From Xanthomarina sp. F2636L (GTDB lineage Bacteria > Bacteroidota > Bacteroidia > Flavobacteriales > Flavobacteriaceae), in contig NZ_JAPMLM010000069.1 of assembly GCF_026410195.1 (NCBI RefSeq), positions 310,001 through 374,000 of the forward strand: DNA of 64,000 nucleotides, read 5' to 3'. This document shows, piece after piece, positions 40,817 through 48,226 of the stretch. Under the pieces are notes generated by a model. That model was not told where the DNA came from and ran no database searches. It saw only the letters and a list, made by a program, of their open reading frames with translations. Made by a program: the position numbers and the translations under genes. Each line of letters opens with the position of its first letter. The stretch's first letter is position 1.

Positions 40817-40963
40817 CTAGTATTTTTTTAAAAAGTATGGGAAAACCGTAACAATAACCATGTGTTTCATCGAAAAGTAGGAAAAATACGTAGTAACACG
40901 TATATATTTTATTGATTTTTTAATTAGGTTTATTGAATTAATAACAATAAACAACATTAATTT

Positions 40964-41455
40964 ATGAGAAAAAGTATTCTTAAACATCGAAACATCGAAA
41001 CATCGAAACATCGAAACATCGAAACATCGAAACATCGAAACATCGAAACATCGTCTAGATTAAGCTTAATATCAATTTGCTTGATTTTATTCGTTTTTAC
41101 AATCTTTAACTGCAAACAAGACGACATTCAAGATGTTGATTATAATTCTTTACAAAAACAGAAAGAAAGTATAAATCATTTTACTATTGAAGATTTACCT
41201 GATATTGAACATGCCTTAAATTCTATAGGTTCTAATAGAACAGGAAGGCTTATGACAACCACATTCGGAGATTTAGATTTGACAGACATTCTACATAATC
41301 AGATTGGAGGAGATATTGTTGTAAATGGTTCTACAAATATTTTGCAAGATGTAATTCAAGCTTTAACTAATGGGGATTTAAAATATTTAAATAATCAAGA
41401 TCCCATAGAATGTAAGGCCACGTTCAATTCTCAACTAATACCTACTAATTTGTAA
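40964..41455 (+). CDS. Putative surface lipoprotein with octanucleotide repeats in its 5' end, candidate phase-variable
   Basis: A 163-residue protein of unknown function. After MRKSILKH, residues ~7-30 are encoded by nine copies of an 8-nt repeat and read as RNIETSKH repeated. Then comes a lipoprotein signal: basic start, hydrophobic ISICLILFVFTIF and the cysteine of FNCKQDD. The residues after the Cys (KQDD) resemble the lipoprotein export signal that sends lipoproteins to the cell surface in Flavobacteriaceae. The mature part is not recognised. Loss or gain of one repeat would shift the frame into a stop within a few codons of the array (TAG at 41055-41057 or TAA at 41061-41063). The 163-residue length and no later good ATG support the 40964 start. 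Confidence 0.6.
   Translation: MRKSILKHRNIETSKHRNIETSKHRNIETSSRLSLISICLILFVFTIFNCKQDDIQDVDYNSLQKQKESINHFTIEDLPDIEHALNSIGSNRTGRLMTTTFGDLDLTDILHNQIGGDIVVNGSTNILQDVIQALTNGDLKYLNNQDPIECKATFNSQLIPTNL
40982..41053 (+). repeat. Tandem octanucleotide repeat, nine perfect copies
   Basis: The unit AAACATCG is repeated exactly nine times without error (72 nt). Because 8 is not a multiple of 3, the unit is read in all three frames with a 24-nt cycle; no stop occurs inside the array in any frame. It lies 18 nt after the ATG of the lipoprotein gene. Confidence 0.97.
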
Positions 41456-41467
41456 TAATAAAAAAAA

Positions 41468-41824
41468 ATGAAAACTCCCCTGTTATTACTTAGTTTCACA
41501 TTACTAATATTTTCATGTTTTCCGAGAAAAGAACCCGGAATATCAATTTCAAATAATTGTGATGTTGACTACGATAGTATAAAAGTCTTTACATCGATTG
41601 AAAAACCAACATTATTTTATAATATAAAAGCTAATAGCAGAGTTAAAGGTAAAATATTATTTGATAATAATAAAAAAGGAGATGGATGTTATAAAATACT
41701 GGTTTATAAAGAAGAAATCTTAAAATTCAATGATTGTTTCGGTTACTATACTAATGGTGCGTCTTTGAATTATGGATTTGAAATTAGTATTGAATCTGAC
41801 ACATTAATTGTAAAATCTAAGTAA
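41468..41824 (+). CDS. Small lipoprotein, function unknown
   Basis: A 118-residue protein with lipoprotein signal (LLLLSFTLLIFSC; Cys at about 17). The mature part has four further cysteines (NNCDVDYDSI, GDGCYKIL, NDCFGYY) and a strand-rich look; no family recognised. It begins 12 nt after the putative phase-variable lipoprotein and may be expressed with it. AT-rich, Lys/Asn-rich composition like its neighbours in this accessory stretch. Confidence 0.65.
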   Translation: MKTPLLLLSFTLLIFSCFPRKEPGISISNNCDVDYDSIKVFTSIEKPTLFYNIKANSRVKGKILFDNNKKGDGCYKILVYKEEILKFNDCFGYYTNGASLNYGFEISIESDTLIVKSK

Positions 41825-41963: not shown

Positions 41964-42539
41964 ATGAAAAATGCATTTTTAATTTTAACTTTTTTAAGCT
42001 TGTTAAATGTTCAAGCTCAAGAGTTAGATATTCATAAAATTGAACTAACAGATATAGTTTTAATAAGCACTATTTCGGAATATATTAAAGAAACTAAGCA
42101 AAATTTTTCTGAGTTTAATAATATAGGCTACATTAAAGTTTCTATTAAATCGGTTAATAAACCGAATTTAGGAAATGAACTTAAAAGAGTTTATAAAATT
42201 GAAGATGTTGGTATCGAAATTCTAGATAAGAACGAAGATTGGTGGTATCCTAATTACTATACTTATATTGATAATAAATTGATTATTATTTACAATAAAA
42301 CAATAGATGATGTACTTAATATTAAGTTTTCAAATAAAAGTAAAAGAAAATTTAGAAAAATTTTAGAGGAATACTTGCCACCAAAAAAGAAATTCAAGTT
42401 TATAGATTTTGAAGGTGATGGCAAAACTATTACCGAAATATATAGGCATCCAACATATCTTGGTTCAGAATCTTATGGGATAATTTTAGAAATATATTGG
42501 AAAACTCATCAAATTAGAAAGGCAACACATTATGATTAA
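41964..42539 (+). CDS. Exported protein of unknown function, tandem paralogue A
   Basis: A 191-residue protein with a signal peptide (1-18, LTFLSLLNVQAQ). The mature part (ELDIHKIELTDIVLISTISEYIKETK onward) has no recognised domain; there is one WWYPNYYTYIDNKLIIIYN segment shared with its paralogue. The next gene is a diverged relative. The first ~110 nt of coding sequence are nearly identical to the neighbour while the rest is only loosely similar. No terminator is seen between them. Confidence 0.7.
   Translation: MKNAFLILTFLSLLNVQAQELDIHKIELTDIVLISTISEYIKETKQNFSEFNNIGYIKVSIKSVNKPNLGNELKRVYKIEDVGIEILDKNEDWWYPNYYTYIDNKLIIIYNKTIDDVLNIKFSNKSKRKFRKILEEYLPPKKKFKFIDFEGDGKTITEIYRHPTYLGSESYGIILEIYWKTHQIRKATHYD
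41983..42094 (+). repeat. 112-bp direct repeat, copy 1
   Basis: Matches 42582-42693 at about 110 of 112 positions (differences near 41989 and 42054), offset 599 nt. It encodes the signal peptide and first part of the mature protein of paralogue A. Confidence 0.93.
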
Positions 42540-42559
42540 TTTAAACATTGTTTAAAGTT

Positions 42560-43126
42560 GTGAGGGATTATAAGTTATTAGTTTTAATTTTTTTAAGCTT
42601 GTTAAATGTTCAAGCTCAAGAGTTAGATATTCATAAAATTGAACTAACAGATACAGTTTTAATAAGCACTATTTCGGAATATATTAAAGAAACAAAAACT
42701 TTCGATTCTCTTTTTAATCATGTAGGATATGTAAAAGTGGATATAAGAGGATTGAATAATTATAATAAAGAAAATGAAATATTTAGAATTTATTATATTA
42801 CTGATTCCTCATATCCTTTAGAGAAAAATGATCAAGATAAAAGTTATCCAGATTATTACACTCATATAGATAAAAAATTAGTCTTAATTTATAATGAATT
42901 AAATAGAGAATTGTTTCAGTATACTTTTTCTTGTAAGAGTAAGAAGAAATTAAGAAAATTAACAGAACCTTTTTTAAGCCCTAAAATTACACCTAAAGAT
43001 TTACCTAAAAACAAAAAAGAAAGAGATTTTATTAAAGATTTTAGAGAGCAATACGTGAGGTTTAGACATACTGAATTGATTATTGTTGAAGGCGAAAAGC
43101 CAATAGTTATTAAAAATGTTCATTAA
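42560..43126 (+). CDS. Exported protein of unknown function, tandem paralogue B
   Basis: About 188 residues from GTG 42560, giving MRDYKLLVLIFLSLLNVQAQ, a good signal peptide. There is no ATG in frame; TTG 42548 is the other candidate. Copy A begins with ATG in the equivalent place, so the start region here has changed, which may lower expression. The mature half starts like A and later diverges (DYYTHIDKKLVLIYN is the best shared later block). The C-terminus (RHTELIIVEGEKPIVIKNVH) is unlike that of A. Confidence 0.62.
   Translation: MRDYKLLVLIFLSLLNVQAQELDIHKIELTDTVLISTISEYIKETKTFDSLFNHVGYVKVDIRGLNNYNKENEIFRIYYITDSSYPLEKNDQDKSYPDYYTHIDKKLVLIYNELNRELFQYTFSCKSKKKLRKLTEPFLSPKITPKDLPKNKKERDFIKDFREQYVRFRHTELIIVEGEKPIVIKNVH
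42582..42693 (+). repeat. 112-bp direct repeat, copy 2
   Basis: Second copy of the block at 41983-42094, including silent positions; similarity falls off sharply at both ends. Confidence 0.93.
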
Positions 43127-44334: not shown

Positions 44335-45171
44335 TTAAAAAAAGTTGAGTTTATATCTGATATACGATTTAGTAAGTATGAAAACCTTTAGTCCATTTGA
44401 AATTCTAATTCTGCCATTCATGATTTTCTCAGAATCTGCTTTTTTAAGTTTTTTGAGTAATTTCAAATAATATCTATATGCAATGTACACACCTAATTTA
44501 CTTTCTAAAGGCAGTTGAATGATTCCTTTATAAGCAACTTCTAAATCTTTGTCAATATCTGCAATAATCTCTTTTTTATTGCGATTATTTAAGCCATTAT
44601 GAGATAGGTTAGGAAAATATGAACGACCAAGTTGCTCTACATCGTCTTTAAAATCTCTTAAAAAATTTATTTTCTGAAAGGCAGAGCCTAAATGTTTTGC
44701 AGCCTCTTTTAATTCGTTAAATTTATCTTCGTCATTATTTACAAACACACGTAAACACATTAGGCCTACCACATCTGCAGAACCATAGATGTAGTTTTCA
44801 TAAGCCTCTTTGGTTGTATAATCTGTCACGTATAAATCGGCTTCCATACGTTTTAAAAAATCATTAGCATAGTTATGTAGGTCGTATCTATGAACTACTT
44901 CTTGAAATGCATTGATAATGGGGTTTAAACTTATTTTTCGATCTAAAGATTTCTCATAATCGTCCACAAAATCGTGAAACAAATCTTGCTGATTATAACC
45001 TTCAAAAGAGTCTACAATTTCATCTGCATAACGTACAAAACCATAAATAGCATAAATATGAGGTCTTACTGAAGGTGCAAAAAGTTTAATGCCTAAAGAA
45101 AATGATGTGCTATAGGTATTGGTAACAATTTTGCTACACTTGAGGCTTGAGGAGTCAAATAGCTGTTTCAT
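44335..45171 (-). CDS. crtB: Phytoene synthase
   Basis: A 278-residue trans-prenyl head-to-head synthase joining two GGPP molecules. The first Asp-rich motif is in RYADEIVDSFEG and the second in LRDFKDDVEQLGRSYFP; TYSTSFSLGIKLFAP at the start is also typical. It begins 1 nt after the crtI stop, so the two are coupled. Confidence 0.94.
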   Translation of the reverse strand: MKQLFDSSSLKCSKIVTNTYSTSFSLGIKLFAPSVRPHIYAIYGFVRYADEIVDSFEGYNQQDLFHDFVDDYEKSLDRKISLNPIINAFQEVVHRYDLHNYANDFLKRMEADLYVTDYTTKEAYENYIYGSADVVGLMCLRVFVNNDEDKFNELKEAAKHLGSAFQKINFLRDFKDDVEQLGRSYFPNLSHNGLNNRNKKEIIADIDKDLEVAYKGIIQLPLESKLGVYIAYRYYLKLLKKLKKADSEKIMNGRIRISNGLKVFILTKSYIRYKLNFF

Positions 45172-45172
45172 T

Positions 45173-46636
45173 TTAATGATATTTTTTAATTAAATCGCTT
45201 ACAATTTTTCCTGATATCAATGAAGGTGGAACTCCTGGTCCTGGGACGGTTAGCTGCCCACAGAAATATAGATTATCCACTTTTTTACTTTTTAGTTTTG
45301 GTCTTAATACATGGGTTTGCATAAGTGTATTCGCTAAACCGTAAGCATTGCCTTTATAAGAATGATAATCATCTTTAAAATTGTTCACACAATAGGATTC
45401 TTTAAAGAGAATATGGTTTTTAATTTTCTCACCAGTTATGGTCTCAACTCTTTCAATTAGTTGATTAAAATAGTGTTCTCTAATTTCAGGAGTGTCTTCA
45501 ACATCTGGTGCAATAGGAATGAGAAAAATACCTGCTTCCTTTCCTTCTGGCGCTGTTGAAGCGTCTGTAATACTGGGAAAGCTTGCATAAAACAAAGGCT
45601 TCTCTGCCCATTCTATAGTGTCGTAAATAGTTTTAGCATGAGCTTCAAAATCGGTATCAAAAAACAAGGTATGATGAGATACGTTTTCAAGTTTCTTGTC
45701 GAAGCCTACATAAAATAATAGGGCAGAAGGAGCAAAAGTCTTTTTGTTCCAATAAGTTTCAGAATATTGTCTTAATTCTTTTGGTAATAAGGTTTCTGTA
45801 TGATGATAATCGGCACCACTCAATAAAATATCGCAAGGAAAATAACTAGTTTTTGTTGTAACCCCTTTTACTATTTTATTTTTAATTTCTATATTTTCAA
45901 CTTCACTATCAGTAACTATTTTTACACCCAAACTTTGTGAAAGTGTGGTCATGGCTTTAACAACTTCATACATGCCACCTTCGGGATGCCAAGTGCCAAG
46001 TTTGAAATCGGCATAATTCATAAAATTATAAAAAGAAGGCGTGTTGCTTGGCTTAGCACCAAGAAACAATACCGGGAATTCGAGTATTTTTTGAAGCTGC
46101 TTGTTTTTTACATATCCAGAAACTTGGTTCTTGATGGTTATTACAAATTCACTTAGTTTTAAAAAGGTTTTATGATTGATAATTTCAAAAACATGTTCTC
46201 CTGGTTTATAAACCAAATCTTTTATAGCGATGTTGTAATTGCTATGAGCTTTATTTATAAACTTTTGTAGCTTTTTACCACTTCCTTTTTCAATGGTTTC
46301 AAAAGTTTGTTTGATGTCTTCAAAATTATCAGTGATACTTACTGAATCGTTTTTGCCAAAATAAATTTGATAAGCAGGGTTGAGTTTGTTTAAAGTGTAA
46401 TGAGAGGAAACTGATGTTTTGAAGTCGCTAAAAAAACGTTCAAAAACATCTGGCATCCAATAGAATGTTGGGCCAATATCGAAGGTGAAACCATCTTTTT
46501 TTAGCTGTCTAGCACGACCTCCAACAGTTTTGTTTTTCTCTAAAACTGTCACATCAAATCCCATGTTTGCTAAATAGCAAGACGCAGAAAGCGATGAAAA
46601 CCCAGAACCTATAATGACAACCTTATTTCTTTTCAT
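45173..46636 (-). CDS. crtI: Phytoene desaturase
   Basis: A 487-residue FAD-dependent desaturase that converts phytoene to lycopene. The dinucleotide fold VVIIGSGFSSLSASCYLANMGFDVTVLEKN is at 5-35 (GxGxxx with an Ala/Ser variant), followed by GGRARQLKKDGFTFDIGPT. The C-terminal signature NLYFCGQLTVPGPGVPPSLISGKIV is intact. A weak hairpin lies in the 104-nt gap to the fasciclin gene upstream. Confidence 0.94.
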   Translation of the reverse strand: MKRNKVVIIGSGFSSLSASCYLANMGFDVTVLEKNKTVGGRARQLKKDGFTFDIGPTFYWMPDVFERFFSDFKTSVSSHYTLNKLNPAYQIYFGKNDSVSITDNFEDIKQTFETIEKGSGKKLQKFINKAHSNYNIAIKDLVYKPGEHVFEIINHKTFLKLSEFVITIKNQVSGYVKNKQLQKILEFPVLFLGAKPSNTPSFYNFMNYADFKLGTWHPEGGMYEVVKAMTTLSQSLGVKIVTDSEVENIEIKNKIVKGVTTKTSYFPCDILLSGADYHHTETLLPKELRQYSETYWNKKTFAPSALLFYVGFDKKLENVSHHTLFFDTDFEAHAKTIYDTIEWAEKPLFYASFPSITDASTAPEGKEAGIFLIPIAPDVEDTPEIREHYFNQLIERVETITGEKIKNHILFKESYCVNNFKDDYHSYKGNAYGLANTLMQTHVLRPKLKSKKVDNLYFCGQLTVPGPGVPPSLISGKIVSDLIKKYH

Positions 46637-46740: not shown

Positions 46741-48165
46741 TTATAAATTAGGAATCATCACTTTGTTGATAACATGTATCACGCCATTACCAGCTTGAAC
46801 ATCTACGGCTATAATACCTACATCTGTTGCTCCTGACCCATCAGTAATATTAGCAATATTATCTCCAGTTCCAGGAAGTGTAATAGTTACATTATCTCCT
46901 TCTAAAGTTGGAGCAGTTGTATTGCCAGGATTGTTTAAATCTCCAGAGGCTACATTTGTACCAGCAATTACGTGGTGTAGTAAAACTTGGGTTAAAACAG
47001 CTTCTGCAGGAACAGACCCTAATGCATCAAAAGCATCATTGGTTGGAGCGAATACAGTAAAATCTGGATTAATGCCATCTGCGTTTCCTCCTTCAGTTCT
47101 TGATAGGATTGCAGCGAAGTCAGTTGCTGGTGTTAAGTCTGTTAAGGCAGCCACTAAAGTTGAAAAATTAGGATCTGCAGTTGCAAAAGTTACTACAGTT
47201 GGAATTCCTATAACAGCATCTACCGCATGAATAATTCCGTTGGTCCCTACAACATCAGCTTGAGCAACTGTTGAAACACCATTAAACATTACTCCATTAC
47301 TTGTATTAAAGTATAAACTCATGGCATTTCCACCAGCACCAGTAGCACCAGTATTAGTATAACCTGAACCAGCATCTGTTAAAAAGCTAGAAGTTACTGC
47401 AGAACCAATTATAACATGGTTTAATAATATTTGAGAAAGTACTGCTGTATCAACATCTCCAAGTGGCGTTCCATCCAAAAATGTAGTAAAAGCATTATTG
47501 TCTGGTGCCAAAACTGTAAATGGACCTTCTCCTTGAAGAACACTTACTAGGCTTCCATCGGCAGCTCCTAAAGCAGCTACTAAATTAGAAAAAGATGAAT
47601 TTGCTAAAGCGTGATCTACTACATCTGGTAAACCTAATACATTATCAACAATGTGAATGGTTCCATTAGATGCATTAACATCTGCTGTTGTAACTGTAGC
47701 TATATTATTAAACATTACACCATTTGAAGTATCAAAATAGATGCTAATGTTTTGTCCTCCAGCTCCAGTAGCACTACCTGAGGTATAGCCAGAGCCCATT
47801 GATAATAAGTCACTTGCTTTTACATCTGCCATAATCACATGATTAAGTAGAATTTGTGATAAGACATTTGTTGGAACTTGTTCTAAAGAACTAAATCCGT
47901 TGTCTGCAAGAAAAGCAGAAAAAGCAGCATTAGTTGGTGCAAGAACTGTAAATGGTCCATTACCACTTAATACAGTTACTAAATCTCCATCTGCTCTAGA
48001 TAAGGCAGCTACTAAAGAACTTAATTCTGGTGTTTCTAAAGCGATCTCAACAATGTTTTGTTCTTGAGGCTCAGGCTGTGGAGTTGGATTGTCGTCATCA
48101 TTACTACAAGATGTTATAAATAATGAGAGACTAAAAAATACGAGGTAAAAGATTTTTGTTTTCAT
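46741..48165 (-). CDS. Lipoprotein with three fasciclin (FAS1) domains
   Basis: A 474-residue lipoprotein: signal peptide with lipobox ITSC (Cys about 19), then SNDDDNPTPQPEPQ, an acidic stretch like a surface lipoprotein export signal, then three FAS1 repeats (about 45-180, 185-325, 330-474). Each shows the FAS1 H1/H2 blocks, e.g. GPFTVLAPTNAAFSAFL and TVFAPTNDAFDAL, and IHVVDNVLG, IHAVDAVIG, IHVINKVMI. FAS1 domains mediate adhesion, and some bind carotenoids or other hydrophobic ligands. It lies first in line before crtI, with a clear promoter. An earlier in-frame ATG at 48198 lies in the promoter and is not used. Confidence 0.92.
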   Translation of the reverse strand: MKTKIFYLVFFSLSLFITSCSNDDDNPTPQPEPQEQNIVEIALETPELSSLVAALSRADGDLVTVLSGNGPFTVLAPTNAAFSAFLADNGFSSLEQVPTNVLSQILLNHVIMADVKASDLLSMGSGYTSGSATGAGGQNISIYFDTSNGVMFNNIATVTTADVNASNGTIHIVDNVLGLPDVVDHALANSSFSNLVAALGAADGSLVSVLQGEGPFTVLAPDNNAFTTFLDGTPLGDVDTAVLSQILLNHVIIGSAVTSSFLTDAGSGYTNTGATGAGGNAMSLYFNTSNGVMFNGVSTVAQADVVGTNGIIHAVDAVIGIPTVVTFATADPNFSTLVAALTDLTPATDFAAILSRTEGGNADGINPDFTVFAPTNDAFDALGSVPAEAVLTQVLLHHVIAGTNVASGDLNNPGNTTAPTLEGDNVTITLPGTGDNIANITDGSGATDVGIIAVDVQAGNGVIHVINKVMIPNL

Positions 48166-48195
48166 TTTGTCTATGTTTTTTTGTTTTAACTTGGA

Positions 48196-48226
48196 CAAAT
48201 ATAGATATTAATATTTTATTGTCAAA
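48196..48226 (-). promoter_or_regulatory. Bacteroidota sigma-A promoter for the fasciclin/crt genes
   Basis: On the minus strand TTTG (plus 48223-48226), 19-nt spacer, TATATTTG (plus 48196-48203): a perfect match. It lies 31 nt before the ATG at 48165, in the divergent region shared with the MerR gene. GACAA-type sequences recur around it at 48194-48198, 48219-48223 (inverted) and 48246-48250. Confidence 0.8.

Follow-up and report, generated by a model that had tools for sequence, protein, structure and literature searches.

Most of what is known about phase variation by repeats comes from Proteobacteria and mycoplasmas. In the SSR contingency loci of Haemophilus, Neisseria, Helicobacter, and Campylobacter, a perfect non-triplet repeat lies early in a surface-protein gene, and changes in unit number alter the reading frame. 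The locus described here shares this arrangement; it differs in lying in a member of the Flavobacteriaceae, in belonging to genes with exchangeable toxin-like tails, and in being known from sequences alone. The genus Ornithobacterium belongs to the same order as the Flavobacteriaceae. As described in part of the source considered here, the FSD surface genes of Ornithobacterium hominis are likewise putatively phase variable, but their products are adhesin-like, not toxin-like (PMC13183296). PhasomeIt scores units of 5 to 9 nt with three or more copies as phase variable (PMC5953494). A 2025 review of phase variation contains, in the sections considered, no match for "Flavobacteri-", and its Bacteroides parts concern invertible DNA and phase shifts (PMC11868660). 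In searches of the open-access literature on repeat phase variation in Flavobacteriaceae and Bacteroidota and on phase-variable toxins, we recognized nothing as the family described below.

On the side of the gene products, the closest described systems are the polymorphic toxin systems, which according to the relevant part of Zhang et al. 2012 (PMC3482391) combine a conserved N-part bearing a trafficking signal with variable C-terminal domains and small genes behind; lipobox-bearing polymorphic effectors are known from Amoebophilus (PMC3482391, same part). Our family matches these systems in layout (N-part, exchangeable tails, small genes). It differs from them in having no recognized toxin domain above the cut-off, but a putative repeat switch at its start; neither phase variation nor slippage is mentioned in that part of the article. 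SitA proteins of Myxococcus are lipoprotein toxins with N-terminal escort domains, polymorphic C termini, and an operon immunity gene; they spread by outer membrane exchange and carry nucleases (PMC8546572, in part). Likened by description alone, SitA and our family have a similar layout of lipoprotein and polymorphic C terminus, and in that portion of the source phase variation appears only in a reference title on another subject.

We consider slipped-strand phase variation of surface-displayed, toxin-like lipoproteins to be the best reading of these loci, with a probability of about 0.75.

Results

The array in the window

The window, i.e., the whole 64-kb (64,000-nucleotide) stretch of Xanthomarina sp. 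F2636L DNA that was analyzed, contains the features collected in Table 1. An earlier note on this DNA had described nine perfect copies of an octanucleotide 18 nt past an ATG as a candidate phase switch, and the window sequence bears this out: nine perfect AAACATCG units follow the ATG at 40964 at that distance, in frame, and are stop-free in all three frames, as had been claimed. In silico, the ORFs with 8 and 10 units reach only 28 and 35 aa, in agreement with its view that the other two frames are OFF. Of the two off-frame stops that it named, the TAA indeed lies at 41061-41063, and the TAG is found one base further on, at 41056-41058 instead of 41055-41057. As in SSR contingency loci, the unit is not divisible by three, and the array is perfect and lies within a coding region. 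It is the sole array of its class (unit of 4 to 12 nt, length of at least 20 nt, at least 3.4 copies) within the window, and 60 dinucleotide shuffles of the window yielded none. No second AAACATCG pair was found in the 3.37-Mb genome, where the two-unit pattern matched inside the array only and the reversed control gave 0 matches.

Table 1. Positions of the features discussed, counted from the first letter of the window
Feature	Position	Strand	Basis or remark
Family-wide upstream element	40836..40902	+	Alignment of 12 loci, five Xanthomarina places
Element block TATGG-N5-CCGTA	40836-40850	+
Element block TTTCATCGAAAA	40865-40876	+
Element block TACGTAGTAACACGTA	40887-40902	+
TAGGTTTA, candidate -7 promoter box	40925..40932	+	AGGTTTA at constant spacing in aligned loci
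ORF carrying the array, 163 aa	40964..41455	+	Nine units put it in frame with the lipobox
(AAACATCG)9 tandem array	40982..41053	+	Proposed slippage switch
Hydrophobic core, lipobox Cys (41111-41113), and KQDD	41054..41125	+	Translation
N-terminal part common to X. gelatinilytica and X. spongicola orthologs	41126..41295	+	Similarity stops at 41295
DUF6973-type C-terminal domain remnant, last 56 residues	41285..41452	+	Similarity to end of G001 protein
Small lipoprotein-like gene, 118 aa	41468..41824	+	Translation; would occupy the immunity-gene place
Secreted 191-aa protein, immunity-like by position	41964..42539	+	By eye like L034:6512-7111 of X. spongicola
192-aa paralog of the 41964..42539 gene	42548..43126	+	By eye like L033:6448-7026 of X. 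gelatinilytica

In the window protein, KQDD comes directly after the lipobox Cys, residue 50. The product is a lipoprotein by sequence, as the earlier note had it; the export signal that it saw there is less exact, since CKQDD has K and Q swapped relative to the Capnocytophaga surface lipoprotein export signal, C-X-K-(D/E)2-X (PMC5080379, in the part considered). Family relatives begin with a lipobox, many with CQKDD-like residues, and those with CQKDD (L040) or CQKED (L043) fit that signal in a comparison made by motif.

By sequence comparison, the window gene is a truncated chimera, apparently produced by an in-frame internal deletion that fused the N-part to the end of a DUF6973 tail. Intact relatives have about 500 to 600 codons from the lipobox Cys. 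The deletion junction lies near 41285-41295: the DNA match to X. gelatinilytica AK20 (G003) stops at 41295, and that to another Xanthomarina genome (G001) begins at 41295. Of the final 56 residues, 34 (61%) are the same as at the end of the G001 protein, the tail of which matches Pfam DUF6973 (E 2.2e-21). Pfam gave no match for the DUF6973-type piece of the window, and Pfam and NCBIfam gave none above the cut-off for the window ORF and three neighbors. With nine units the window copy stands in the ON frame, but it has lost the greater part of its body and tail, and all that it retains of a possible toxin domain is the 56-residue tail end. Since the copy is internally deleted, what its switch controls may by now be a disarmed product.

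The product of 41468-41824 showed no similarity to that of the small gene that follows the DUF6973 gene in G001. Elsewhere in the window, positions 46741-48198 on the minus strand encode a large repeat-domain lipoprotein with an SCSNDDD signal that is fasciclin-like by eye. This gene adjoins carotenoid-type genes (44335-46636); these genes also lie beside the locus in the sister species.

In keeping with the proposal of a switch in the earlier note, copy number differs between related genomes. The X. gelatinilytica ortholog has a AAACATCG array with eight units, which puts ATG and lipobox out of frame, so that the two copies have opposite frame states (nine units in frame, eight out of frame); despite its OFF frame, the ortholog retains 497 open codons from the lipobox Cys. 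The flanks of the two arrays are 88% identical (116/131 and 213/242 aligned bases), and both arrays are perfect. At this flank divergence, the probability of 64 unchanged array bases is about 3e-4 if rates are equal across sites, and perfect arrays amid such flanks point to unit turnover. The ortholog in X. spongicola DSM 22637 (G002) has one degenerate unit and a nonsense TAA six codons past the Cys.

Arrays across the family

Eight Xanthomarina genomes were sampled, one per species, and five of them (G000 to G003 and G007) carry family genes. These loci occupy five chromosomal places: behind clpX, in an interval between EnvC-like peptidase and thioesterase genes, beside rpoN, beside a CBS-domain gene, and near aat (neighbor names were read from translations). 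In 10 of the 13 loci, the start and the lipobox are separated by an array of at least 3.4 units of 7 or 8 nt; these arrays are (AAACATCG)9 and 8; (AAAATTC)4.0 and 4.9; (AAAAATC)5.1, 4.1, and 3.4; (AAATTCC)4.4; (CAGCCAAA)4.4; and (CAGTCCAA)4.3. Of the remaining three, one carries an 8-nt unit repeated 2.25 times, another is free of arrays, and that of G001 has lost its start and most of the upstream element.

A family profile search identified relatives in 54 of 395 Flavobacteriaceae genomes, from 39 of 203 genera. Outside Xanthomarina, a tract was present at 6 of about 46 starts (one of these, A14, was not used) and about 40 had no array; the list consists of 54 lipobox candidates minus 8 internal cysteines removed by inspection, and the two starts of G320 are not in it. 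Arrays at the same point, from four other genera, are (CAACACG)8.9 in G333, which is in frame, (ACAAA)6.8 in G154, poly-C10 in G413, and (AAAC)8.75 and (AAAAACC)4.3 in G431.

In 465,359 bases, with overlaps included in the sum, there are 15 distinct arrays of at least 3.4 units, and 14 of them are located in family genes, between the start and the lipobox; these bases were chosen for family loci, and the figure is hence not a genome-wide rate. The fifteenth, (AGTT)11, precedes the start of a family gene by about 175 nt. The 14 arrays have units of 4, 5, 7, or 8 nt, and none is divisible by three, though units of 6, 9, and 12 nt were also scanned. Because the units are unrelated, the switch apparently has several origins. 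By this comparison, the putative switch is recurrent across a larger toxin-like family, beyond the single window lipoprotein.

A second change in unit number was seen in G320, which has two adjoining paralogs with different tails at the EnvC-like/thioesterase place. From ATG to Cys, their sole difference is two ACAAA units (4.4 versus 2.4 units); the 321 nt past the Cys are identical, and the first 600 nt contain 3 differing sites. Neither paralog is in frame; open codons number 486 in one and 602 in the other. G320 came from a protein search, the DNA search for the G154 genus having returned one partial match (G455, without an array). For the genus of G333, the one other genome matched just 215 nt of the query and provided no unit number for comparison.

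Several start regions have further repeats. At L044 (G003 C4:5000-13500), on the minus strand, a 21-nt near-palindrome, CCTGCCTGTCCGGCAGGCAGG, stands behind an (AAAAATC) array and resembles an inserted repeat element. At L098 (G431 C4), the (AGTT)11 array at positions 1148-1191 sits directly behind a 137-aa gene, and the nearby family start has (AAAC)8.75, so that two tetranucleotide arrays stand side by side. The A14 tract of L129 (G305), 116 nt before a family lipobox, and a 22-nt tandem duplication within the signal peptide of L105 (G352) may each mark an unstable start.

The loci also have an upstream element in common. In the alignment it consists of TACGG-N5-CCGTA (TATGG in the window), TTTCATCGAAAA, and a TACGTA repeat, followed by an AGGTTTA box (AGATTTA at one locus) that lies 90 or 91 nt from where the element starts, at all 12 aligned loci. 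The Bacteroidota -7 consensus is TAnnTTTG. Across the window copy (40836-40932) and the 11 other loci, we observed two inverted repeats with the AGGTTTA box at a constant distance. A search of 119 genomes for the pattern of the first two blocks gave 9 places, spread over 4 genomes and each upstream of a family gene; the reversed control gave 0 matches. G320 has a related element (TCATCGAAAA, TACGTAGAACTACGTA, and TAGGTTTG). From its appearance, the element may serve as the site of a single, dedicated regulator.

Tails and small genes

The family combines a conserved N-part, with its trafficking signal, and exchangeable tails. At the clpX place, the window has the DUF6973 remnant, G003 an M15-like tail, and G002 yet another tail. 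The tails at the EnvC-like place are HExxH-type in G000, DUF6973 in G001, and M15-like in G007. The two M15-like tails are 57% identical and are on different N-parts. The names M15-like and HExxH-type are motif readings with subthreshold Pfam matches only (Peptidase_M15_3, E 0.074; SprT-like, E 0.077). For ten relatives no toxin family scored above the cut-off, and PADLOC on five relatives gave one weak match (E 0.01). Sequence searches of the PDB gave no match for an HExxH-type tail and weak matches only for the M15-like tail (amidase, E 0.096; sonic hedgehog, E 0.45). An AlphaFold model of the X. gelatinilytica tail, computed without an alignment, had a pLDDT of 31 and was discarded.

Small secreted or lipoprotein genes lie behind family genes, and one of them encodes DUF6705 (E 3.4e-39), a domain without an assigned function. 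For the family as a whole we infer toxicity and immunity. By eye, no difference was seen between the 235-aa small genes of G002 (L046:4928-5635) and G007 (L043:7170-7877), where the neighboring family genes are about 30% different; recent transfer of an immunity-like gene is possible.

The payload of a real switch might nevertheless be something other than a weapon, such as surface enzymes or adhesins that vary in phase, for example, in feeding or host contact. The outcome for the ten relatives is consistent with this, as is DUF6973, which has no known function and whose name was not found in the open-access papers examined; by motif and subthreshold Pfam match, the M15-like and HExxH-like tails could be digestive peptidases. 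Different tails on one N-part, in sister species and in tandem paralogs, each with a small gene of its own, are however the layout of polymorphic toxins, as set out in the part of PMC3482391 considered here, and we regard a nonweapon payload as unlikely.

Frame states and translation start

Frame was scored for 15 arrays (at least 3.4 units, or poly-C10). Two are in frame, those of the window and G333, and 13 are out of frame (two in G003, two in G000, four in G007, one in G002, and one each in G154, G431 [AAAC], G413, and G320 [4.4 units]); random frames would predict 5 of 15 in frame, with the reservation that orthologs are not independent. Unscored were L111, whose array is followed by a stop in the lipobox frame, the A14 tract of L129, and the duplication of L105. 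Two short arrays were unscored as well: L042, which starts with GTG and is in frame with its 2.25 units, and L145 of G320, which is out of frame with 2.4. Counting these two, 3 of 17 are in frame.

Such a preponderance of out-of-frame arrays could be expected from decay, that is, if dying genes had grown slippage-prone repeats without selection and the frame states were functionless. Lesions are indeed common beside the arrays: in addition to the window deletion, the nonsense codon of X. spongicola, and the loss of element and start in G001, early stops leave 95 open codons behind the array in L041 and 75 in L045. These two loci are, however, the exceptions among the 13 out-of-frame arrays, of which 11 precede at least 486 open codons from the Cys, and dN/dS is 0.23 to 0.55 for five pairs among four out-of-frame genes (the window N-part was left out because its alignment crossed the deletion junction). 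Long open frames and these ratios suggest that the genes are not off for good. Conservation of the upstream element and the avoidance of multiples of three in unit length also argue against decay, which we consider improbable.

The remaining question concerns the start of translation. Start codons behind the array in the lipobox frame lie 3 to 10 codons before the Cys across 12 measured loci, each with a full or a short array, L098 has one at 11 codons, and L093 has none; this is too close to the Cys for a signal peptide, which places the start at or before the array. An ATG farther upstream in X. gelatinilytica (L033:4264) shares the lipobox frame and opens a 578-aa reading frame, but it sits within the upstream element, before the AGGTTTA box, and its window counterpart is closed by a stop; we therefore do not take it as the start, and a different start there keeps only a slight probability. 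It is thus very improbable that the array, whose stop-free repeat would allow this in every frame, varies only the length of the signal peptide or leader, with a start elsewhere or ribosomal frameshifting giving steady low output in any state.

Discussion

Phase variation of these lipoproteins by slipped-strand mispairing would proceed as follows. Through replication slippage, the stretch from start codon to lipobox would gain or lose 8-nt units. Where the frame fits, the signal peptide would be completed and the lipoprotein made; where it does not, translation would end within four codons past the array. The family would constitute a predicted polymorphic toxin system on the cell surface, each locus flipping independently. 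As steps of this scheme we infer that the repeats slip in living cells, that the lipoproteins reach the surface and are toxic, that the small genes confer immunity, and that switching brings some benefit.

The switch itself appears well supported by comparison. For the phase-variable surface lipoprotein postulated in the earlier note, the case for switching has become stronger (an ortholog with 8 instead of 9 units, recurrent non-triplet arrays, and long open frames), and the picture of the window gene has changed, as this copy would be a deleted derivative of a toxin-like gene.

An array switch of this type accounts for the misplacing of the starts of such genes by gene callers. Phase-variable weapons also raise the question of how OFF siblings stay immune to ON siblings. 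Tentatively, and with somewhat more doubt than confidence, we propose that Flavobacteriaceae may hold a deck of surface lipoprotein toxins that share one dedicated promoter type and have a slippage switch each. Every cell of a clone would then display a random subset of the weapons, with immunity kept in all cells, amounting to a bet-hedged, combinatorial form of warfare. That weapon-like genes bear non-triplet arrays of unrelated units at one and the same point suggests that selection acts on which cells carry the weapon.
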